From Chloroflexota bacterium (GTDB taxonomy: Bacteria; Chloroflexota; UBA11872; UBA12225): a stretch of 48,255 nucleotides of DNA. Shown one piece after another: positions 10,766 to 24,670 of this stretch. Made by a program: the position numbers and the translations under genes. The DNA is taken from contig SHXX01000009.1 in assembly GCA_009693165.1 (NCBI GenBank), positions 1-48,255 on the forward strand, written 5' to 3'. Below the pieces are notes generated by a model, which was not told the origin of the DNA, searched no databases, and saw only the letters and a program-made list of their open reading frames with translations. Within the stretch, counting starts at the first letter, position 1. Every line of letters begins with the position of its first letter.

Positions 10766-11602
10766 ATGACCCCTTCGAGCGTCTTCCTGCCGGCGCTGTA
10801 TGTACGCCTCGCCGTCGCACGGGTTCGCGGGCAGATGCGATACCGTGTTGGTTTCCTGTTGATGATCCTCGGCGTTTTCGTGGCAAACGCCTTCGAGTTC
10901 GTCGCCCTCCTCGTCCTGTTCGGTCAAGTCAAGGTGCTTGGTGGGTGGTCCGCCCACGAGGTCGCCCTCCTTTGGGGAATGTCGCAGATGTCCTTCGCGA
11001 TTGCCGAGGCGTTCGGTCGTGGGTTCGAGGGGCTTGCCCCTCAAGTCCGTTCCGGAGAGTTCGATCAGGTGCTCGTTCGCCCGCTTCCGGTGTTCTTCCA
11101 GGTCTTTGCCTCTGCATTCGAAGCGCACCGGATCGGCCGGTTCCTTCAGGGCGCGACGGCAGTCTGGTACGCCAGGAGCGATCCGGCATCGATCCCGTGG
11201 CAGGCGTCGCACTGGACGACGCTGATCTTCGCGGTGACAACGGGTGCAGTCATTTTCTTCGCGACGTTCGTGCTCGGTGGCGCCTGGGCACTGAGGGTCG
11301 TGGACGGGCAGGAGCTGATGAACACGTTCACTTACGGTGGCACCACGTTGGCAAGCTACCCCCTTGAACTGTTTTCCGATCCGATCCGCCGTGCGGCAAC
11401 GTGGATCCTGCCTCTCGCGTTCGTGAACTACTTTCCGGCCCTCGCACTGCTCGGGCGCGTCGGACCACCCGGCATGCTCCCGTTCGGCCTCACGCCAATC
11501 ATCCTCGCGATGTCTGCCCCGGTGGTCGCCATGACTTACCTTGGGGTTGCCGTGGTGGTTTGGGACCGTTCCGTCATGCGTTACCAAGGGACAGGCACGT
11601 GA
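10766..11602 (+). CDS. ABC-2 type transporter permease (COG3694-like)
   Basis: MTPSSVFLPALYVRLAVARVRGQMRYRVGFLLMILGVF...; RSGEFDQVLVRPLPVFFQV is typical of these paired permeases. Confidence 0.8.
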   Translation: MTPSSVFLPALYVRLAVARVRGQMRYRVGFLLMILGVFVANAFEFVALLVLFGQVKVLGGWSAHEVALLWGMSQMSFAIAEAFGRGFEGLAPQVRSGEFDQVLVRPLPVFFQVFASAFEAHRIGRFLQGATAVWYARSDPASIPWQASHWTTLIFAVTTGAVIFFATFVLGGAWALRVVDGQELMNTFTYGGTTLASYPLELFSDPIRRAATWILPLAFVNYFPALALLGRVGPPGMLPFGLTPIILAMSAPVVAMTYLGVAVVVWDRSVMRYQGTGT

Positions 11603-12630
11603 TTGCCGTTGAGGAGCTGAGGAAAGCGTTTCGCGTCACAACAAGGCGGACTGGTGGCTTCAGCGCGATTCGTGCCCTGCTTCCTGGCGCAACGTCATAC
11701 GTCGAGGCTGTGCGAAACGTCAGCTTCACGATCAATGGTGGCGAGATGGTCGCGGTTCTCGGTCCAAACGGCGCCGGCAAGAGCACGACCATCAAGATGT
11801 TGACTGGCATTCTGGTTCCGGACGCCGGAACCGCGACAATCCTCGGTCTTGTCCCGTGGCAGTCGCGCCGTGCCGTTGCCAAACGGATCGGGGTCGTTTT
11901 CGGACAACGGACCCAACTGTGGTGGGACCTTCCCCTGTCAGACTCCCTCGACCTGGTGCGACACATGTACGGAGTGCCGACGCAGCGGTTTGCAGAAAAC
12001 CTGGCAACCTGCCGCGAACTCCTTGAACTGGACCCATTTCTGGATCGGCCGGTCCGCCAGCTTTCACTCGGGCAACGCATGCGCGGAGACTTGGCCGCGG
12101 CCCTCATTCACGATCCGGAAATCCTCTTCCTTGACGAGCCGACAATCGGCCTTGACCTCGTGGTGAAGGCCAGGATCCGTGACGCCCTGCGGCATCTGAA
12201 TGAAACCCGTGGCGTCACGGTTCTTCTCACGACCCACGATCTGGCAGACGTTGCCCGCCTCTGCCAGAGGGTGCTATTGATTGACCACGGACGAGTGGTC
12301 CATGATGGCGGTCTCGAGGCACTGCGCACACGGTTCGGAAGTGGATGCACCCTCGTCGTGGATCTTGCTGATCCGTCAACCCCGGGACAGGCACCGAGTG
12401 CCAAGGGAGACGAAACCGATCAACGGAACGACGGTCCAATGGTCGTCCCGGGTGCCATCGAGATCCGCGCTGAAGGCAACCGTCACTGGCTCGCGTTCGA
12501 CCGCCGCGAGGTGTCGGCCTCCGACCTGATCGCCGCCGTGGCGTCACGGTATCCCTTGTCGGACCTTACGTTGGAGGAACCCGACATCGAAACCGTGATC
12601 GCCAGCCTCTATGCGTCTCGAACCGAGTGA
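11599..12630 (+). CDS. ABC transporter ATP-binding protein (COG4586-like)
   Basis: GTG at 11599 overlaps the permease stop (GTGA). Walker A GPNGAGKST, signature LSLGQRMRGDLA, Walker B ILFLDEPT, H-loop TTHD. Confidence 0.92.
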   Translation: MIAVEELRKAFRVTTRRTGGFSAIRALLPGATSYVEAVRNVSFTINGGEMVAVLGPNGAGKSTTIKMLTGILVPDAGTATILGLVPWQSRRAVAKRIGVVFGQRTQLWWDLPLSDSLDLVRHMYGVPTQRFAENLATCRELLELDPFLDRPVRQLSLGQRMRGDLAAALIHDPEILFLDEPTIGLDLVVKARIRDALRHLNETRGVTVLLTTHDLADVARLCQRVLLIDHGRVVHDGGLEALRTRFGSGCTLVVDLADPSTPGQAPSAKGDETDQRNDGPMVVPGAIEIRAEGNRHWLAFDRREVSASDLIAAVASRYPLSDLTLEEPDIETVIASLYASRTE

Positions 12631-12722: not shown

Positions 12723-15700
12723 TCAAGGAATTTCACCATCCACCGGTGTGACTGCCCCGACATCAATCCACGAATAGTTGCCTGTCTCGGGATTGCGCAC
12801 GAAGTACCTATCGGCTTCACGTTCAAGCACCTGATACACAACCGGTGCGCGACCGATCGGACCGAAATCTGTGGCATCAGCGTATGGCGTGGACCAGACG
12901 TGGGTTGCCGGGTCGGTTGAGCGAACATATCTGGGCGTCTCCGCACACCCTGACATGCAGGGTGCGGGCGTCGCGGGCGCTGTTTCCGCGCTCTGGACGT
13001 CAGGAGGAGGAGTCGTTGGAGGGCCGGAAACGTCTACTGCGTCAACGTCAATCCATGCGTAGTTGCGGGTGATCGGATTGCGGACGTAATAGCGATTGGC
13101 CTCCCTTTGGAGGACCTGATACGTGACAGGAGCACGCCCGATCGGCCCGAAATCCGTCGCATCGGCATATGGCGTTGACCAGACGTGAGTGGAAGGATCC
13201 CTTGTCCGTACGAACTCAGGCAGGGACGACACCGGTGGCGTCGGAGCCTTCGGAGCGGTTGACGCATTGGCCGTCGCTGACGGGGTTGCCCCCGGTTCAT
13301 CCACGGCATCAACATCAATCCACGCGTAGTTTCCGCTGACAGGATTGACCACGTAATAGCGGTTCGCCTCACGTTTCAGGACCTGGTAGGTGACTGGTGC
13401 CACACCGATCGGTCCAAAGTCGGTGGCGTCGGGATGCGCTGAGGACCACACTCGCGTCCGGGGATCACGGGTCCGCACCGTCGCCGGCAGCGACGGAGCA
13501 TCGCTTCCTGTCACACGTGGAGCCGGGGCCGGGGCCACGTCACCGCGATTACTCTCTTCGCCGTCCGGCGGACCGGACGGGGCAACCGACTGGGCGTCAA
13601 TCCACCCATAGCCCTTGGTGACCGGGTTGTACACGGAGATGCGCCCGCCGACTTGTGGGCCAATGACCGGGAAGATGGTGTTGGCGGGTGCAGCGAGACC
13701 AAAGTCCGTCGCATTGTCGTCCGGACCTGAATACAGGTGTGCAGATCCGGACAAATTGACAAGGAACGCCGGTTGCAAGCCCACAGGCAGGAACAGCGTG
13801 CGATCAACTTCGCCCGCGGCAAGTGACCAGTCCTGGCGACCGGTCGAGGGATTGAACTCCGCCGGCGACCTCAGGTAGCCAATGAAGTCACCGGCCGAAT
13901 CGCGAGTCGCGTGGAGGTATGCTGGCGTCTGCCCGGAAGGCACGCGAAGCGATGGCATCGAGAAGGCAACGCGCGCATCCGGAGCAGTTGCAAGCACCGT
14001 CAGTCGGAACGGAGCCGCCACAGGTACGACACTGCCCCCACCGAGACTGCCTTGTTCGACCTCATTCAATTTGGGCGGTGCCGGTTCGAACACCATGGCC
14101 GACGCATCCGCAGGTGGGTCGACAAACGGCACCACTCCAGCCAAGGCACCGTAGGTCAACGGCAGGGCCAGTGAGGGCCAGTTGCCGGACTTCGGACGCT
14201 CAATCCGCGCCTGCTGAGCTGGGCGGACAAGGATGACTACCGATCGACGCACAACCGTGGAGGCCGAGGCTCCACCGACCTCGGCACCTTCGACGAAGAA
14301 TGACGATGCCTGTGGTTCGTCCAGCGAGAACGTGAGAATCTCGCGTCCGTCGGCGTCAACCTTCATCACGTCTGGCACCGCGACACTCACCTTCGCACCC
14401 GACTGAGCCAAGTCAGCAAGCGCGCCGAAGACCTTCCCCATCTCGGTAAGCCCCAGTGTCGAAGCCAGATTGCTGACCGTCGCCAGTTCACCGGGTGAGA
14501 AGCTGGCGAGTGTCGAAACAAGCGCCCGTGACTGCGACGGGTCGACCGATCCGACAACGGCCGTGACGGCCGAACGCTGATTGGGTGACAACTCGTCCAG
14601 GACCCGAAGCAACGTAATCGTCGCAGCACTGCCCGCCGACTTCAGGGCATCACTGAAGGCAACCTGCTGTTGTGCGGTGATCACCACAGGTTCCGCGTCG
14701 GGCAACCCACCGGTTGACCGGCCTGGGTTTGGCGAGACCGCAGGGCCCGACAAGGATGGTTCAAAGGTTGGCGGCAACTCAACCGTCGGCGCGACAGGCA
14801 GTGGCACACGGATCACGCGGGGCGGGTCGGGATCGGACCCTCCCGACCCACCCGGAGGCCGGTTTGACAAAACATAGTTCGATGACGCGAGCGCAAACTT
14901 GCCAGTGTGCGGACCGACCGGGTTACCGGCCAAGTCCGTCCCGGGGGCCCCCGAGGCAACCGCAATCCCGATCGTCGATGTGGGATCGCCAGCACCGATG
15001 ACGCCGGTCAGGCTGACAGTGATGGCGAAGCCGGTATCGGAACCCGGAACCGGTGCGAATGTCTTGATCGTCGGCACGCCGATGATGCCCAAACCGGTTT
15101 TCACCATGAACGTATCCGTGGAGGCGTTCTTGACAGGTTCGGTCATTGACACAATGAAGTCGACGGGAAGGGTGCCCGGTGTAAGTTCAGGGACCAGAGC
15201 CGGTCGGGTGACCGAACCTATTTCCGGGCGAACGGTATCGAGCGTTTTGGTTGTCTCGAAGTACGGCGATCCCGATCCGAGAACGTTGCCCGCGGCATCG
15301 ACAATGGGCGACGGTGATACGAGGCGCACCTTCAAGGTCGAACCAGCATCTCCCGGCGCGCTTAGGCCACCCAGACCGACCGACAAACTGTAGACCGATC
15401 CTGACCCGGATACGGCAATGGTGGGTGTGCCTGAGACTGATGGGCCACGTTCAACGGAGAACGCCGTCGCGGTGACATTGGACACCGACTTGGTGAATAC
15501 CACCTGGAACGTGAGTGAGTTGGTCCCATTGATCCGGGGTTCCACCAACCCATCTGTCGGTGTTGCAGTTGTCAGTCCGGGCGGGACAGTGTCGAGCGTG
15601 AAGGTGTCACTTGGTGTCGGGGTAGTTCCGGTAGTGACGGTGTTTCCGGCACTGTCTGCGATCATCGCCCCGCCTGGAATGTCCAGGCCAAGCGTCGAGG

Positions 15701-18700
15701 ACACGGCGCCTGTTGCGGTGGTCCCGGCCAAATCGAGGGCGACGGTAAACGTGGTGGTGGCAGATGATGCACCCGGTGTGACGGACTTCACCGTCGGGGT
15801 ACCCGTGACCGAAGAGCCGGTCGCAACCGTGAATGTGTTCGTGGCAACGTCATTGACCGGTTCCGAGAACGTGACCGTAAAGGTTGGAGCCGATTGTGCA
15901 CCGATCAGCGCCGGGGTGCCCGCCGCACGCGTGATTGATGTGACGCGCGGGGCCTCCGTGTCCAGGATGTAGCCAGAAACCGACCCCGTTGGCGTGGTGC
16001 CCGGCAGGGCGTTTCCGAATGGGTCCTTGATAACCGCGTCGCCAGCGACACCGATGTCGATTGAAGATGTCGATCCCCCAACGCCAGTCACGCCGCCAAG
16101 ACCGAGGGTGACGATGTACGCGGAACTCAGACCAGAAACCGTGGTTGTTGGATCGGCGACGACCGTGGCGAACGTCGGGATCGCCACGACCCCCGATCCA
16201 ATCCGAGCCACAAATGACGAGGTAGCCACTCCCGAAACCGGTTCCGAGAAGACAACCCGGAAACTTGGCGCAGTTAGCCCCCGGGTTATCGCCGGTGACG
16301 CAGTCCGGGATATCGAAGTCACTGTCGGAGCGTCGGTGTCGACGATGAATGCGGTCGAAGTGCTGCTTCCGGCAAATGTCGCCAGGTTTCCCGCAGCATC
16401 GGACAGCGGTCTTGTCGGGTTCGCCTTGAGCTTGAGGGTCGCTGTCGCATCGCGCCCGCCGTCGCCCCTGACAGCGGTCATGCCGACGGCGACCGTCCAC
16501 ATTCGGTCAGTTGCACCAATCACTGCATTGGGTTCAATGAGGTAAGGGTTTTGCCCATCTCCCAATTGTCCGGACGAACCAAGACCCCAGCATGATCCAA
16601 GCCCAGCGACGGTCACACCGCACGTGTGCGATCCAGCAGGCAGGATTGACGTGACCAGCCCGAAGCCAGCAACCATGCTGACCGGTGTGTTTGCTGCGAC
16701 CTGACTGCCATTTCCAATCTGGCCGGTCGCATTTGCACCCCAGCAGAAACCGGTCCCGCTTGTACTCACGCCACACGTACCGGATTGCCCGGCGTCGACT
16801 CTTGACATCCCTGAGCGCACGACGGTCGGGGACAACTTTGCTACGGAAGTCGCGTCCCCAATCTGACCGGTTTCGTTTGCACCCCAGCAATAGATTGTCG
16901 AACCCGTCGTGAGTCCGCATGAGTGTGATCCACCCGCGGAAACGGACATCCACACCGGCTGGCTGCCAACGCTGGACACAACCACCGGCGCCGGCGCGGT
17001 GCGCGATACGCGGGTTCCGTCGCCAAGCTGACCGCTCGCGTTGGCACCCCAGCACGCAGCTACGGTTCCGGAGGTCAGCCCACACGTGTGTGATCCTCCG
17101 GCACGCACGGTTGTCCACGTTGACGACGCCTGACCGGACAGCGGGTTCACCGCCACCGGCGCCGTCCTCGACGCGGTGCTTCCATCGCCGAGTTGTCCAT
17201 CACCGTTCCCACCCCAGCAGTACGCTACATTCGCGGTGGTGGTCCCGCACGAGTGGGTGGCACCCGCGCTGATCGTTGACCAAGTCAGCAACCCGGACAC
17301 AAGCGTGGGTGATGAACGGCCGTTCAGGTCTCCGCTTGTGCCGTTTCCGATCTGTCCTTCAAGATTTGATCCCCAGCAATACGCAATTCCCGCCACCGTC
17401 AATCCACAGGAGTGGTCATATCCGGCCGAAATGGCCTTCCAGGCAAGTCCACCCGAGACGCGTGTCGGCAACTTGCGCGATGTCGTGGTTCCATCCCCGA
17501 GCTGCCCAGACGCGTTATCACCCCAGCAATACGCCGTACCGGTTCCGACAATCCCGCAGGAATGCCGATCGCCTACCGTCAGCATAGTCCAGGTGAAGCC
17601 ACCACTGATGTCGGCGGGCAATGGCCGAACGGCCGAGAAACCCGCACCCAATTGCCCAGTCTCGTTCTTCCCCCAGCAATTGGGAACCAGACCGGTCGTG
17701 ATGCCGCAGGTGTGTGATGCCCCAACGGAAATCGATCGCCAAGTGAGTGAACCCGCCACTGCCGTCGGGGAGCTGCGCAATGTGGTCGTCGTATCTCCAA
17801 CCTGTCCGGCGGCGTTCGCACCCCAGCAATAGGCAGCACCAGATTGCGCAAGGCCACAGGTGTGGGAACCGGCCGAACTGCCACTCGCGGCAACCGTGGC
17901 CCATGATATCGAACCATTTACCAGCGTCGGGGTCGTCTGACCAGACAGCGAGCCGACTCCCAGTTGGCCACTCGTATTCAGGCCCCAGCACCACGAGGCA
18001 CCGGCTTGGGTCACGGCGCAGGTGTGGCGGTACCCGGCCGAAACCGCCTTCAGCGTGAGTGGCACCGACAGCGTCGTCGGGGCGGTTTGACCGGTGGTCG
18101 TACCGTCGCCAACCTGACCGGAACCGTTCGCCCCCCAGCAAAGCGCGGTGCCCTCCAGTGTGCCGCTCACGGTCGCAGTTAGCCCGCAAGTGTGGTCACC
18201 ACCTGCAGACAGCGATGCCCATCGGCGCGCGGTGACGACTGCCGTCGGCACGCTGCTGACGGTCGTCGTTCCATCACCGATCTGGCCATCGGAATTCCTG
18301 CCCCAGCAATGTGCTAGGCCGGCGACGGAGTACGTCGACGACGCCGTGACCGCGCACGTGTGTGCCGTACCGGCGGCGACCGACGTCCATGAGGCAGCAC
18401 TGACGACCGCGACCGGTGATGTCCGGTCGATCAAAGTCCCATCGCCAAGTTGGCCGCTGTCGTTGGCGCCCCAGCAATACGCCTTGCCGGTTGTGGTCAC
18501 CCCGCAGGTAAACCCAGAGCCAGAGGCCACGGAACCCCAGACGAGTTCACCGGCAACCAGCACTGGTTCGGTCCGAGACACAGACGTACCATCGCCAAGC
18601 TGGCCACGGTCGTTTGCGCCCCAGCAATATGCGGTACCCACGGTCGTCACCGCGCAAGAGTGGCCGGCGCCACTCGACACGGATGCGTAGGCCACGTTGG

Positions 18701-21700
18701 TGGCCGTAATCGTTGGTGTCCCGCTGATCCCGGCACCGGCTTCAAGCACGTATGACCCGGTGGCAACTCCTGAGACCGCCTCCGAATACGTCACCGCAAA
18801 CTCGGGAGAAGGGACCCCAGCGGTTGGCACCAGAGTGCCTGCTGGGAAACCTGCACTCGCCTTTGGCACGATCGAGACAAGGGTTGGCCTGACGTTGTCT
18901 AGGTTGAACGGCTGGTTGACACCCGTCGGGTCACTTGATGTGAGGGCGGTGCCTACGGTGTCGGCTACCGCTGACGCCGGGGAGACGCCGAGCCCAATGG
19001 TTGACCCGGCACCGCCATCTCCCGTGACCGACGCCGTCGAGAGTGAAACGGTGAATGTAGTGGTCGCCACCGACACCCCGGGCGTCACTGATGCCACACT
19101 TGGCATCCCAATGATCCCCGGCCCGCGCGCCACATAGAAGCTGCCCGCACCCACGCCAACGACCGCTTTCGAAAAGACCACCTTGAATGACGGGACGGTC
19201 TGCGCATCAATCCGAGATGCCGATCCGACGCGGGATATCGACGAAACTGAAGGCGCAACGCCGGTTGCATTGTCGAGGATGTAGCCCTGTCTCGATCCTG
19301 AGAGTGATGGTGAAAGGGCATTTCCCGACGCGTCAACAACACCCGGTGATGAGGTCAATCCAAGCGTGAAGGTGGCGCTTGCCGCCCCATCACCCGTCAC
19401 CCCACTCAGGTTCACAAAGACAGTGAATGTCTGGCCTGAACCCGACGCAGTGGCCACCGACCGGTCGACCACGGCTGGAAGTAGCGCGATCGACACGTTG
19501 CCATCACCGACTTGCCCGTTGACCGCCGTGCCCCAGCACCAGGCCTTGCCCAGCGAGTTGACCCCGCAGGTGTGCTGGAACCCAGCCACGATCGACTGCC
19601 AGCGGTCGTTGCCACCGACGGCAGTTGGTGCGGTGCGGGATGTCGTCGTCCCATCCCCCAGCTGACCCATGCCGTTGGCGCCCCAGCAGTACCCAATGCC
19701 CGCGGTGGTAATGCCGCAGGTATGGGAATCACCGGCCGAGATCGATGACCACTGGAAGCCGGAAACCGAGGTTGGCACGGTCCGTGAGGTGCCCGAACCA
19801 TCGCCTAACTGACCTGAAGCGTTATATCCCCAACAGGATCCTGAGCCCGTCTGGGTTACGCCACAGGTATGCCGTCCGCCTGCCGAAACCGTTGCCCACT
19901 TGGTGGATCCGCTGTCGTAGACCGCAAACGGAACGGTGCGCGTCGTCCCGGACGTTCCATCGCCGACCTGGCCGTCGGCATTGGATCCCCAGCAATACGC
20001 CAAACCTGCCGTCGTGACCGCACAGGAGTGCGCGCCACCGGCGGCAACCGACGTCCAGGCAAGTTGACCACTGACAGGTGAGGGTGTTGAACGGGAGGCC
20101 TGCGATGCGTCACCCAACTGCCCACTCGAGTTTGCGCCCCAGCACGAAACGGCTCCGCCAGTGGTGGTCGCACAGGAGTGAGAGGTTCCCGCCGAAATGC
20201 TTGATACCCCGGTCAGGCCCGAGACCACAGACGGCGAAGTGCGGTTGATTGTTGAACCATCGCCAAGGCGTCCGTCGCTGTTCGTCCCCCAGCAATAGGC
20301 AAGGTTCGGCGACGCACTGGCTACCGAACAGGCGTGCGATGAGCCAGACGAGATCCTGGACATCGGCACGGCACCAGATGAAGCCACTGGCGTGGCATTC
20401 AACAGAGATGATGCTCCGGCAACCTGTCCCTCATCGTTCGCACCCCAGCAATTCAGGACACCACCAGTGGCGATAGCGCACGTGTGATCACGGCCGGGTG
20501 CGACCGCAGACCACTGACGGTCGCCCGATACTTGGACGGCTGAGGCGCGCGTCGAGGCAGCGATTGGGCTTCCCAACTGTCCACTCGTGCCTGGCCCCCA
20601 ACAGTCCAGAATGCCAGACGTTCGGATCGTGCACGCGTGAAACCCTCCAACGCTTATCCGGGTCTGGGTCGTGTCACCACCAATGAGTGACGGTTGTGAT
20701 CGACTGACCAGCCCGCCAACCTGGCCGACCGACGCTTCACCCCAGCAATACAACTTGGAACCCTGGGTAAGGGCACATGTCTGGTCGCCTCCCGCGTCGA
20801 TGACACTCCAGGTCAACCCTCCAGCCACGATCGTTGGCGTACTGGCTGCCGAAACCGTGGCTGTGCCAAGTTGCCCGCTGCCGTTCGCACCCCAGCAATA
20901 CGCCTCCCCACCGGTTGTCAGGCCACAAGAATGGCTGTTCCCCACGTTGATGGCCTGCCAGGCGCGTCCACCAGACACAATCGTCGGTGTGTTCCTAGTC
21001 ACCGTCGTACCGTCACCGACCTGACCGAATGTGTTCACACCCCAGCAGGACGCAGCGGTGGACTGCTGGCCGCAAGTGTGCGCGCTCCCAGCGGAAATCG
21101 AAGTCCAACCTGTGCCGGAGATGAGGGTAGGGACATTGCGGTTCGAAGTCGTCGTATCGCCCAACTGACCGCTGGCGTTCGCACCCCAGCAGTACGTATT
21201 CCCGCCCATCAAGATGCCGCACGTGTGGTTGTCACCTGCGCTGATTGCAGTCCATTGCGCCGCCGGCACCCCGGCGGGGTCGGACACACGAGCTGGAGAC
21301 GTCGCATCCGTTTGGGTACCGTTCCCAAGTTGACCACTGTGGTTCCGTCCCCAGCAGTACGCCCATCCTGCCTGGGTGATACCGCATGTGTGAGAATCAC
21401 CTGAAGCGAGGCCCTTCCACGTGTAGCCAGCAGCTATGGCAGATGGCGACGTGGCTGTGGTCGCAGTGCCATTTCCAAGCTGGCCGTAGCCGTTTGCGCC
21501 CCAGCAGTATCCCTTGAGATCGATGGAGATCCCGCACGTGTGCATCAAGCCGGCAAAAACGTCGGCGTATGCAACGCCAACAGACAATGTAGGACTTGAC
21601 GTGATGCCAGAGCCGGTCACGATGCTGAACGTAGCGGCCGACACACCAGTCACCGGTTCATTCGTCGTGACCGCGAAGGCGGCTTCAGTGGTTCCAGCGG

Positions 21701-23636
21701 TTCGTTCAGCGGCACCGTTCGCCCGGGTGATTGACGTGATCGACGGCTGTACGGTGTCTAGGAGATAGGTCTCGCTCGTGACCGACAGCGATGTCGATGC
21801 GAGTTGGTTCCCGCCGGTGTCCACGATGACAGATACCGAGGACAGTGCGAGCCCTATGGTCGCTGATGACCCGCCATTCGCGGTGACACCCGCCAGACTC
21901 ACCGTGACCGTGTGAGACGTTGCGGTTGTCGAACCCGGGGACACCGAGAAAACAACTGGCGTCCCAGTGATGCCACTTCCAGTGACAATCTTGAAGCTGC
22001 TCGTCGCCACACCGGTGACCGCCCGACTGAAGGACACCACAAAGGTGGGACTGGCAGCTCCCGCACCGACACGTGGGTCAGTTGCACCACGCGCAATCGT
22101 TGAGATGACCGGCTCTGCGGGAATGATGACGGGCTGGGGCTGCGTGGCAGCCGCCGAGCCGTCACCGATCTGGCCGGAAGCGTTCGAACCCCAACAATAC
22201 GCCTTGCCGGTCAGCGTAATGCCGCACGCGTGGGATCCGCCAGCACTCAGCTGCGCCCATTTGAGTGAGGTCAGGATGGCTGTCGGAGCCGAACGGTTCT
22301 GGGTGCCACCGTCGCCAATCTGGCCAAATCCTCCAGAACCCCAGCAGTATCCGACATCAGTGTTATCCGTACCGCATGTTGTGTTTCCAGAAGAGGTGAC
22401 GGATTTCCATAGGCGTGTCCCCGATACGGGCGATGGAGAGAGCTGGGTGACCGTCGTCGAGTTCCCGACCTGACCGCTTGAGTTACCGCCCCAGCACGAG
22501 AGGGCGTTCGAGGCGGTGACCCCGCAAGTGTGGTCGGAGCCAGTGGCAATCGGGCTTAGGGCCGCGTTCCCTGAAACTGCCACCGGGGACGATCGCGAAA
22601 CCGTTGTGCCATCTCCCAACTGTCCGGTGGCGTTGAAGCCCCAGCAATAGGTCGCGCCAGACGTCAATTTGCCACACGTGTGGTACTTGCCCACCGAGAT
22701 CAAGGTGAACGGTATGCCACTAAGACCGGTCGTCTGGACAGGGTTTGGCGACAACCGCGACGTCGTCGTGCCGTCACCAAGGGCGTGGTTACTGTTGTCT
22801 CCCCAGCAATGGGCAGTGCCTGTGTTGCTCAGGCCACAGGTGTGACGCACGCCGGCAACCACTGTCGCCCAGGTGATGCCACCCACAACAAGTGTCGGTA
22901 CCAATCGTGATGTCGTCGTTGCGTCGCCCAACTGGCCGTAGGTGTTGCTACCCCAACAGTAGGCCGTGCCCCTCGTGGTGACAGCGCAGGTGTGTTCGAA
23001 CCCGGAACTGAGGACATCCCACCCGGTGCCCGCGACCTCGCCGGTTGGAATTGCAACCGAGACAGGGGTGAGTCGCTTTGTAGTCGTCCCGTCACCGATC
23101 TGGCCCGACCCATTGCTTCCCCAACACCACGCCTCGCCGATCGACGAGACGGCACAGGTATGGCTGAACCCTGCCGAAATGCCTTCAAATGCCGCTTCGA
23201 ATGAGGCTGACGCTGCCCGGACAACGCCACTGCGGGTCCGGCGGACAATCGGTGACGACTGCGATGGCGGCGTAGCGGTTGCACCAACCACGGACATCGT
23301 CGGGGAGGCCATGGCAATCGTCGGTGCTTGTGTAGACGCAGTCGTGGGCGCAATCGTGGCGAAGGAAACTGTTGACGTTGCAGTATGGGCAAGGGCAACC
23401 GACGGGGTTGCAAGACTTTGGCTGGTACGTGACGCCACGACCGTGGAAGTGAACACGAGACCAGACGAAGCGTCGGAGCCCGCAACCGGCACCGAAGCCG
23501 TCGGAAGGGTGGCCGCGCGCATCGGTAACTCGTCGCCAGAAGCGCCCCGCAGTTCAACCGACCCGGCAGCAATCCCGCCAAGCAAGAAAAGCGCGGAAGC
23601 AATCCGGCGGAGGTGGTCGACTGCTTTCCCCGTCAT
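12723..23636 (-). CDS. Giant secreted RCC1-repeat / Ig-like / SH3-like repeat protein
   Basis: One ORF (12723..23762 in the track); ATG at 23636 gives a signal-peptide-like N-terminus (MTGKAVDHLRRIASALFLLGGIAAGSVE). 35 SHTCGxTxxGxxYCWGxNxxGQLGDGT repeats, eight Ig-like units, four C-terminal ATDFGPIG...YAWIDVDAV repeats. Confidence 0.92.
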   Translation of the reverse strand: MTGKAVDHLRRIASALFLLGGIAAGSVELRGASGDELPMRAATLPTASVPVAGSDASSGLVFTSTVVASRTSQSLATPSVALAHTATSTVSFATIAPTTASTQAPTIAMASPTMSVVGATATPPSQSSPIVRRTRSGVVRAASASFEAAFEGISAGFSHTCAVSSIGEAWCWGSNGSGQIGDGTTTKRLTPVSVAIPTGEVAGTGWDVLSSGFEHTCAVTTRGTAYCWGSNTYGQLGDATTTSRLVPTLVVGGITWATVVAGVRHTCGLSNTGTAHCWGDNSNHALGDGTTTSRLSPNPVQTTGLSGIPFTLISVGKYHTCGKLTSGATYCWGFNATGQLGDGTTVSRSSPVAVSGNAALSPIATGSDHTCGVTASNALSCWGGNSSGQVGNSTTVTQLSPSPVSGTRLWKSVTSSGNTTCGTDNTDVGYCWGSGGFGQIGDGGTQNRSAPTAILTSLKWAQLSAGGSHACGITLTGKAYCWGSNASGQIGDGSAAATQPQPVIIPAEPVISTIARGATDPRVGAGAASPTFVVSFSRAVTGVATSSFKIVTGSGITGTPVVFSVSPGSTTATSHTVTVSLAGVTANGGSSATIGLALSSVSVIVDTGGNQLASTSLSVTSETYLLDTVQPSITSITRANGAAERTAGTTEAAFAVTTNEPVTGVSAATFSIVTGSGITSSPTLSVGVAYADVFAGLMHTCGISIDLKGYCWGANGYGQLGNGTATTATSPSAIAAGYTWKGLASGDSHTCGITQAGWAYCWGRNHSGQLGNGTQTDATSPARVSDPAGVPAAQWTAISAGDNHTCGILMGGNTYCWGANASGQLGDTTTSNRNVPTLISGTGWTSISAGSAHTCGQQSTAASCWGVNTFGQVGDGTTVTRNTPTIVSGGRAWQAINVGNSHSCGLTTGGEAYCWGANGSGQLGTATVSAASTPTIVAGGLTWSVIDAGGDQTCALTQGSKLYCWGEASVGQVGGLVSRSQPSLIGGDTTQTRISVGGFHACTIRTSGILDCWGPGTSGQLGSPIAASTRASAVQVSGDRQWSAVAPGRDHTCAIATGGVLNCWGANDEGQVAGASSLLNATPVASSGAVPMSRISSGSSHACSVASASPNLAYCWGTNSDGRLGDGSTINRTSPSVVSGLTGVSSISAGTSHSCATTTGGAVSCWGANSSGQLGDASQASRSTPSPVSGQLAWTSVAAGGAHSCAVTTAGLAYCWGSNADGQVGDGTSGTTRTVPFAVYDSGSTKWATVSAGGRHTCGVTQTGSGSCWGYNASGQLGDGSGTSRTVPTSVSGFQWSSISAGDSHTCGITTAGIGYCWGANGMGQLGDGTTTSRTAPTAVGGNDRWQSIVAGFQHTCGVNSLGKAWCWGTAVNGQVGDGNVSIALLPAVVDRSVATASGSGQTFTVFVNLSGVTGDGAASATFTLGLTSSPGVVDASGNALSPSLSGSRQGYILDNATGVAPSVSSISRVGSASRIDAQTVPSFKVVFSKAVVGVGAGSFYVARGPGIIGMPSVASVTPGVSVATTTFTVSLSTASVTGDGGAGSTIGLGVSPASAVADTVGTALTSSDPTGVNQPFNLDNVRPTLVSIVPKASAGFPAGTLVPTAGVPSPEFAVTYSEAVSGVATGSYVLEAGAGISGTPTITATNVAYASVSSGAGHSCAVTTVGTAYCWGANDRGQLGDGTSVSRTEPVLVAGELVWGSVASGSGFTCGVTTTGKAYCWGANDSGQLGDGTLIDRTSPVAVVSAASWTSVAAGTAHTCAVTASSTYSVAGLAHCWGRNSDGQIGDGTTTVSSVPTAVVTARRWASLSAGGDHTCGLTATVSGTLEGTALCWGANGSGQVGDGTTTGQTAPTTLSVPLTLKAVSAGYRHTCAVTQAGASWCWGLNTSGQLGVGSLSGQTTPTLVNGSISWATVAASGSSAGSHTCGLAQSGAAYCWGANAAGQVGDTTTTLRSSPTAVAGSLTWRSISVGASHTCGITTGLVPNCWGKNETGQLGAGFSAVRPLPADISGGFTWTMLTVGDRHSCGIVGTGTAYCWGDNASGQLGDGTTTSRKLPTRVSGGLAWKAISAGYDHSCGLTVAGIAYCWGSNLEGQIGNGTSGDLNGRSSPTLVSGLLTWSTISAGATHSCGTTTANVAYCWGGNGDGQLGDGSTASRTAPVAVNPLSGQASSTWTTVRAGGSHTCGLTSGTVAACWGANASGQLGDGTRVSRTAPAPVVVSSVGSQPVWMSVSAGGSHSCGLTTGSTIYCWGANETGQIGDATSVAKLSPTVVRSGMSRVDAGQSGTCGVSTSGTGFCWGANATGQIGNGSQVAANTPVSMVAGFGLVTSILPAGSHTCGVTVAGLGSCWGLGSSGQLGDGQNPYLIEPNAVIGATDRMWTVAVGMTAVRGDGGRDATATLKLKANPTRPLSDAAGNLATFAGSSTSTAFIVDTDAPTVTSISRTASPAITRGLTAPSFRVVFSEPVSGVATSSFVARIGSGVVAIPTFATVVADPTTTVSGLSSAYIVTLGLGGVTGVGGSTSSIDIGVAGDAVIKDPFGNALPGTTPTGSVSGYILDTEAPRVTSITRAAGTPALIGAQSAPTFTVTFSEPVNDVATNTFTVATGSSVTGTPTVKSVTPGASSATTTFTVALDLAGTTATGAVSSTLGLDIPGGAMIADSAGNTVTTGTTPTPSDTFTLDTVPPGLTTATPTDGLVEPRINGTNSLTFQVVFTKSVSNVTATAFSVERGPSVSGTPTIAVSGSGSVYSLSVGLGGLSAPGDAGSTLKVRLVSPSPIVDAAGNVLGSGSPYFETTKTLDTVRPEIGSVTRPALVPELTPGTLPVDFIVSMTEPVKNASTDTFMVKTGLGIIGVPTIKTFAPVPGSDTGFAITVSLTGVIGAGDPTSTIGIAVASGAPGTDLAGNPVGPHTGKFALASSNYVLSNRPPGGSGGSDPDPPRVIRVPLPVAPTVELPPTFEPSLSGPAVSPNPGRSTGGLPDAEPVVITAQQQVAFSDALKSAGSAATITLLRVLDELSPNQRSAVTAVVGSVDPSQSRALVSTLASFSPGELATVSNLASTLGLTEMGKVFGALADLAQSGAKVSVAVPDVMKVDADGREILTFSLDEPQASSFFVEGAEVGGASASTVVRRSVVILVRPAQQARIERPKSGNWPSLALPLTYGALAGVVPFVDPPADASAMVFEPAPPKLNEVEQGSLGGGSVVPVAAPFRLTVLATAPDARVAFSMPSLRVPSGQTPAYLHATRDSAGDFIGYLRSPAEFNPSTGRQDWSLAAGEVDRTLFLPVGLQPAFLVNLSGSAHLYSGPDDNATDFGLAAPANTIFPVIGPQVGGRISVYNPVTKGYGWIDAQSVAPSGPPDGEESNRGDVAPAPAPRVTGSDAPSLPATVRTRDPRTRVWSSAHPDATDFGPIGVAPVTYQVLKREANRYYVVNPVSGNYAWIDVDAVDEPGATPSATANASTAPKAPTPPVSSLPEFVRTRDPSTHVWSTPYADATDFGPIGRAPVTYQVLQREANRYYVRNPITRNYAWIDVDAVDVSGPPTTPPPDVQSAETAPATPAPCMSGCAETPRYVRSTDPATHVWSTPYADATDFGPIGRAPVVYQVLEREADRYFVRNPETGNYSWIDVGAVTPVDGEIP
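12738..13790 (-). repeat. Four SH3-like repeats (ATDFGPIGxAPVTYQVLxREANRYYVRNPxTxNYAWIDVDAV)
   Basis: TDFG codons recur near 12860, 13148, 13414 and 13700. The two C-terminal copies are near identical; the most N-terminal copy is divergent (ATDFGLAAPANTIFPVIG...YGWIDAQSV). Confidence 0.85.
16500..18700 (-). repeat. RCC1 cluster 3: 14 repeats
   Basis: CWG signatures near 16588, 16737, 16881, 17045, 17210, 17369, 17519, 17670, 17819, 17980, 18130, 18300, 18468, 18618. Confidence 0.9.
19450..21575 (-). repeat. RCC1 cluster 2: 14 repeats
   Basis: CWG signatures near 19530, 19680, 19828, 19986, 20137, 20287, 20440, 20596, 20738, 20888, 21038, 21182, 21348, 21498. Confidence 0.9.
22130..23195 (-). 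repeat. RCC1 cluster 1: 7 repeats (~150 bp period)
   Basis: CWG codon signatures (ccccagca/ccccaaca on + strand) near 22189, 22338, 22489, 22638, 22800, 22950, 23119. Confidence 0.9.
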
Positions 23637-24175
23637 GTTGGCCTTCAACCCAGAATGATTATTGACAATTCGAAATGACATAAAATTGTTCAACAATGCC
23701 CCACTGCGGCAGCGTGAACCTGTCCTGACCGTGAACGTACCGTGCAGATGGGAATTACGCAAACATCATCGAACTCGAATGATGGTGAACCCATCAATTT
23801 ATCTACTTGCTGGCGGTGCGGCACTTCATTCATCACGGAAAGTCTTGCGTGCCAGTCCGTTCACGCGTCGTCTCGCACGCTTGCACGGACCGATACCAGT
23901 GCGGACCGGGAAGGTGAGGTGGAACGCCAATCATCTGTCACGGCACGGCCTCCGCGCCTGCTTCAAGGAAATCCCGATGCCAACCACTGCGCATCGGGAG
24001 TAGGATGTGCGTACACCAATCAGGAACGAAGTCCAGACGGGCAGGGGGCGCGATGGTGGGCCGGAACGATCCGCACGGGTGGCGACCGGAGTGTCCATGG
24101 GGAGCTGTCTCCCATAGCGCCGTTCGCCTGGCATTTCTTGACGTTCCCGGAGTGTCTGGACCTTCCGCGAACGCG

Positions 24176-24670
24176 ATGGCGGCTACGGGGACAGCCGAAC
24201 CTCCAATTCGCCGGGTAACACGCCTCTCGTGGGCATGCAGCTTCACGGGTGTCCTGATCTTCGTTTCGATCGTGTCGTGGTTGCTTGCGATACACGCCAG
24301 AGTGATCACCGATGGGTCCTCGGGAAGGATCCCGCTTGCATCGGCCCCGGCCGGATTGCTGATCGTCGCCTTGGCGTTCGGGATCGCCACATGGGTGGGT
24401 GATATCCTGCCGGCGTGGATCCAGTCCGACCGACAACCACATGACCCCTCCGTTCCGTTGCAGTTTCCCATCGCCGGGTGGTGCCACGACTGCAGACGCC
24501 AGTTCGTGGATCCCGGGCCTGGAATCCGCACCATGGGGAACCCGTCTCAAGAAGTGCCCAGGTGGGCCGGACGAGTGCCTTTGAACCCAACGGACGGTAG
24601 CGTAGCGGGGCGGTCTGCCACGGACCAAGGACTGGACGCACCAACGCAAGCGGCGAGGGACTTGAACTGA
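24176..24670 (+). CDS. Hypothetical small membrane protein with C-terminal CxxC
   Basis: In ORF 24005..24670: two hydrophobic segments (WACSFTGVLIFVSIVSWLLAI, AGLLIVALAFGIATWVGDILPAW) then GWCHDCRRQF; start uncertain. Confidence 0.4.
   Translation: MAATGTAEPPIRRVTRLSWACSFTGVLIFVSIVSWLLAIHARVITDGSSGRIPLASAPAGLLIVALAFGIATWVGDILPAWIQSDRQPHDPSVPLQFPIAGWCHDCRRQFVDPGPGIRTMGNPSQEVPRWAGRVPLNPTDGSVAGRSATDQGLDAPTQAARDLN

Follow-up and report, generated by a model that had tools for sequence, protein, structure and literature searches.

Split immunoglobulin (Ig)-like domains are known from RTX adhesins, where they keep ligand-binding domains off the stalk, and such a split has been proposed as a criterion for locating the ligand-binding domains of these proteins (PMC12077191, PMC10865825). 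For RCC1 proteins of bifidobacteria, attachment to the cell wall has been predicted (PMC4449606), and in a pilus an RCC1 propeller is the proposed adhesive component (PMC12206443). Here, we describe a giant gene in a 48,255-nucleotide stretch of a Chloroflexota metagenome-assembled genome (MAG; GenBank assembly GCA_009693165.1, contig SHXX01000009.1, positions 1 to 48,255), referred to below as the window. It encodes a secreted-looking protein of 3,679 residues, for which we infer a secreted or surface location. The layout of the protein is R7 - Ig1 - [Ig2N R14 Ig2C] - Ig3 - [Ig4N R14 Ig4C] - Ig5 to Ig8 - C-terminal repeats, where R7 and R14 are runs of 7 and 14 RCC1 blades and N and C are the halves of a split Ig-like unit. 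The nested RCC1 runs and the halves that flank them are as follows:

18690..18884, minus strand: N half of Ig4, profile positions 15-55 (main finding)
16515..18689, minus strand: 14 RCC1 blades inside Ig4, probably two seven-bladed propellers (CWG count and model)
16326..16514, minus strand: C half of Ig4, profile positions 62-123 (main finding; located again at these very bases by a genome search)
21570..21743, minus strand: N half of Ig2, profile positions 1-54
19461..21569, minus strand: 14 RCC1 blades inside Ig2 (CWG count)
19260..19460, minus strand: C half of Ig2, profile positions 55-121

In the giant protein, as in the RTX adhesins AhLap, FrhA and MpIBP, Ig-like units follow one another along a stalk, and certain units are broken in sequence by another domain that emerges from them. 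However, the cargo is different: in the RTX adhesins it is a vWFA domain, an RTX roll or a module that binds sugars or peptides, and in the Chloroflexota protein an RCC1 propeller pair. The cut also differs from that in FrhA, which leaves one short strand first, whereas here it lies near the middle of the Ig unit. No Pfam family of RTX nonapeptide repeats was found in the whole protein or in its C-terminal 709 residues, and although, by analogy, it may function in the manner of split-domain adhesins, we do not class it as an RTX adhesin. The propellers of RCC1, UVR8 and the RCC1-like domains of HERC2 belong to the same RCC1/BLIP-II repeat family, with seven blades per ring; unlike them, the propellers of the giant protein would come two in a row, each pair enclosed by a different domain. 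In the integrin beta subunit, an I-like domain is inserted in the Ig-like hybrid domain of a receptor, so that both proteins have a whole domain inside an Ig-like domain, although insert and protein are unrelated. Surface proteins of bee-gut bifidobacteria also carry several RCC1 domains of ~7 repeats, but nesting in Ig units, as in the giant protein, is not described for them (PMC4449606). In the literature collection searched, no paper united split domain, adhesin and propeller, which does not prove absence elsewhere. Split Ig-like domains in adhesins are known; the giant protein differs from the RTX adhesins in its cargo, a probable RCC1 propeller pair, and in the lack of an RTX signature.

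The evidence for nesting comes first from a profile of 123 positions, built from the six intact Ig-like units of the same protein with the split units outside the training set. When the whole protein was searched, the N half of Ig4 matched at profile positions 15-76 (33 bits, 3.7e-11) and the C half at 62-123 (20 bits, 4.2e-7), and the excised halves took the positions listed above. Joined in order, the Ig4 halves gave one domain of 64 bits (1e-20) and the Ig2 halves one of 76 bits, whereas in swapped order they fell into two separate matches; the nested RCC1 block alone had no significant match to the profile. Both units are interrupted at the same hairpin turn, a loop that varies in length among the intact units and is a short turn in more distant relatives. 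The original prediction had placed 14 RCC1 repeats between the halves of one Ig-like domain, as the second such insertion in a protein with eight Ig-like units. Its span, 16340..18905, lies within ~20 bases of the unit determined here (16326..18884), the insert holds exactly 14 CWG cores (residues 1713-2391), and all eight units were found, six intact and two split. Furthermore, Ig2 (19260..21743) does carry a first 14-blade insertion in the same hairpin, and the flanking halves, aligned with the intact units, are complementary on their profile, which supports, at the level of sequence, that they belong together.

A second test used MAFFT, which was given nested and intact units without instruction and in several combinations of rows. 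In one set-up, the intact units aligned to the two ends of the nested unit (residues 1-62 and 786-853) and nowhere else, and two further set-ups gave the same placement, except that a short fragment (5-9 residues) strayed into the block. A fourth set-up, with three nested rows only, did not reproduce this placement, and an alignment of the intact units with RCC1-only rows scattered the C halves. The MAFFT test supports nesting, yet its outcome varies with the set of rows.

The arrangement is also conserved between species. Both 14-blade nests are present in two further MAGs of the genus, G001 (L037/L116) and G002 (L038/L119), and in a third, G003, two contigs carry the two ends of the layout (L043, L057). 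The main matches to these relatives share ~74-79% DNA identity with the window, and L057 shares 68%. As the gene is repetitive and the source MAG is fragmented (2.2 Mb in 109 contigs), a chimera created during assembly might be suspected; however, identical order and junctions recur in separately assembled MAGs at ~74-79% DNA identity, which rules out an assembly artefact and leaves a chimera scarcely credible. The ratio of non-synonymous to synonymous change (dN/dS, Nei-Gojobori) was 0.05-0.13 for the split halves and 0.09-0.31 for the intact units, rough values because synonymous differences are near saturation, and on these values purifying selection on the halves is no weaker than on the intact units. 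With complementary halves, a common split point, conservation between species and purifying selection, the nesting of RCC1 blades in Ig-like units is confirmed at the level of sequence, as is the pattern of a split-domain adhesin, namely a discontinuous Ig-like domain with another domain emerging from it. Among the loci compared, none of the other RCC1 proteins has these Ig units beside its blades, and the nest has so far been seen only in this genus.

The membership of the blades in the RCC1 family is clear (PF00415, E = 2.4e-217 for the protein). Counted by CWG cores, the three blocks hold 7, 14 and 14 blades, and RCC1 runs in other proteins also have mostly 7 or 14. An AlphaFold2 model of the nested unit from an alignment of 13 rows (run 1) placed most blades at a predicted local distance difference test (pLDDT) of 80-95. 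In run 2, 27 N-half and 27 C-half fragments were supplied as separate rows, so that only nested rows linked the halves. The alignment for this run was picked among several by whether the fragments fell in the expected places, and one with the C fragments trimmed by nine residues gave low identities and was set aside without row mapping. The confidence of the second propeller fell in run 2, probably because there were fewer RCC1 rows. Foldseek matched the nested-unit model best to UVR8 structures (TMt ~0.9, ~376 columns, ~1.5 A), a length consistent with complete seven-bladed rings. On this model, two seven-bladed, UVR8-like propellers are the most likely arrangement of the 14 blades; the count of 14 in the original prediction stands, but its single block is better described as two propellers in tandem. 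Blade 7 passes into blade 8 with no visible linker, as might be expected of one larger ring or of one propeller nested in the other, and a propeller within a propeller would bring the two ends of the insert close to each other, which suits a hairpin. Both of these arrangements are nevertheless improbable, since confidence dips in both models where blade 7 meets blade 8 (residues 407-430; 415-429 in run 1) and a complete seven-bladed UVR8 fits the model.

Taken together, the layout suggests how the protein might be built. The chain would begin Ig2 or Ig4, exit at the turn of one beta-hairpin, build two consecutive seven-bladed RCC1 propellers, and then re-enter the same hairpin and complete the Ig-like domain, its two halves presumably packing as one sandwich. 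The propeller pairs would then bud sideways from the stalk of tandem Ig-like units and, held out as in RTX adhesins, would most likely serve as binding heads, the whole being a large protein that is secreted or lies at the surface. We regard it as reasonably probable that split Ig-like domains project paired propellers, for binding, from an Ig-repeat stalk; within this interpretation, the split-domain mechanism is likely, and the propeller pairs are, by analogy, probably ligand-binding heads. The propellers could be nested and yet be rigid spacers or lattice elements, as the protein is repetitive throughout. However, in RTX adhesins it is binding modules that the described split domains hold, and propellers commonly serve as interaction scaffolds, and a spacer role therefore seems rather unlikely.

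Several results weigh against split domains that project binding heads. The Ig-like units have no direct sequence match in Pfam, NCBIfam or the PDB. In addition, the Ig halves reached a pLDDT of only 26-40 in the 13-row AlphaFold2 run and rose to ~42-66 in run 2, still below the confident level. Finally, a short form in G001 (L118; C188, 3-4616) runs from the last four R7 blades through Ig1, Ig5, Ig6, Ig7 and Ig8 to the C-terminal region, so the nests are not required in every copy. Compared with the window, it lacks ~5.4 kb, the stretch that holds both nests and spans Ig2 to Ig4. The borders of this stretch each fall between two Ig units, and at the join ~39 bases can be aligned to both sides. 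The short form may reflect a loss or the earlier state, and as G001 is a MAG, L118 may stem from another species. The low confidence of the halves in both runs, together with the greater divergence of the split units from the profile (although they were outside its training set), would also fit halves that are no longer one domain and persist as relics or separate linkers beside the propeller pairs. We give this little credence, because the dN/dS of the halves is equal to or below that of the intact units and, apart from the loop, the halves cover the profile with no stretch of residues missing.

The name 'Ig-like' itself has an indirect basis. Neither the whole protein (up to E = 1) nor any single unit (up to E = 5) matched a Pfam Big model directly. 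However, of 201 genomes searched with the unit profile, 21 hold relatives, the query genome among them, and in two of these, stretches of L156 and L157 that match the profile also match Big_12 and Big_5. Homology to Big_5 and Big_12 is thus reached through these loci, and the name rests on this transitive link and on the sequence pattern.

How the two nests arose was considered from both their blades and their Ig-like units. Blade-to-blade identities between the two 14-blade blocks had no preferred register, so that an in-register duplication of the blocks is not visible in them. In a tree of the Ig units, Ig2 and Ig4 were neither united nor firmly separated (the tree implies two changes, and 24% of bootstrap trees a single origin). 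It is possible, if doubtful, that propeller pairs were inserted independently twice in the same hairpin turn, which would then be a general docking port for double propellers, in a kind of adhesin that does not belong to the RTX group. A single insertion that was later duplicated is compatible with the blades as well, given how far they have diverged. The nests also suggest that inserts ~six times as large as the Ig-like unit itself can be tolerated. A Chloroflexota split domain with RCC1 double propellers would extend the use of split domains as markers of ligand binding beyond RTX adhesins, and would offer a role that can be tested for bacterial RCC1 proteins not yet characterised.

The remaining features of the gene are as follows:

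12723..23762, minus strand: whole open reading frame (ORF) of 3,679 residues, a single open frame with the TTG start as listed
22119..23204, minus strand: N-terminal block of seven RCC1 blades, outside any nest (blade count)
21744..22118, minus strand: Ig1, uninterrupted (unit profile)
18885..19259, minus strand: Ig3, uninterrupted (unit profile)
14853..16325, minus strand: Ig5 to Ig8, uninterrupted (unit profile)
12723..14852, minus strand: C-terminal region, a low-complexity, probably helical part followed by repeated units of ~90 residues

The ATG at 23636, directly before a signal-peptide-like stretch, appears a likelier start than the TTG. In the G002 orthologue (L038; 3965-4846, 4603-13179), the N-terminal RCC1 block is divided between two frames, and a frameshift or sequencing error seems to be the cause. 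The C-terminal region and its repeated units have no significant Pfam match; by eye, the repeats (12733..13451; VRTRDP..HVWS...ATDFGPIG...YAWIDVDAV) look SH3-like. An ABC ATPase gene (11401..12630) neighbours the giant ORF, and on the plus strand a divergent ORF of 221 residues with a probable membrane stretch lies at 24005..24670, where the DNA is ~72% identical in relatives. The closest named relatives of the source MAG are Chloroflexota MAGs, one of them labelled Thermoflexus hugenholtzii. Phage records hold RCC1 proteins at ~30% identity only. Other giant RCC1 genes occur in the genus: L121 (G000:C5, 2372-5437) has 14 blades, and in L117 (G001:C90) an ORF with a run of ~29 blades is followed by another that has at least 16 and reaches the contig end.
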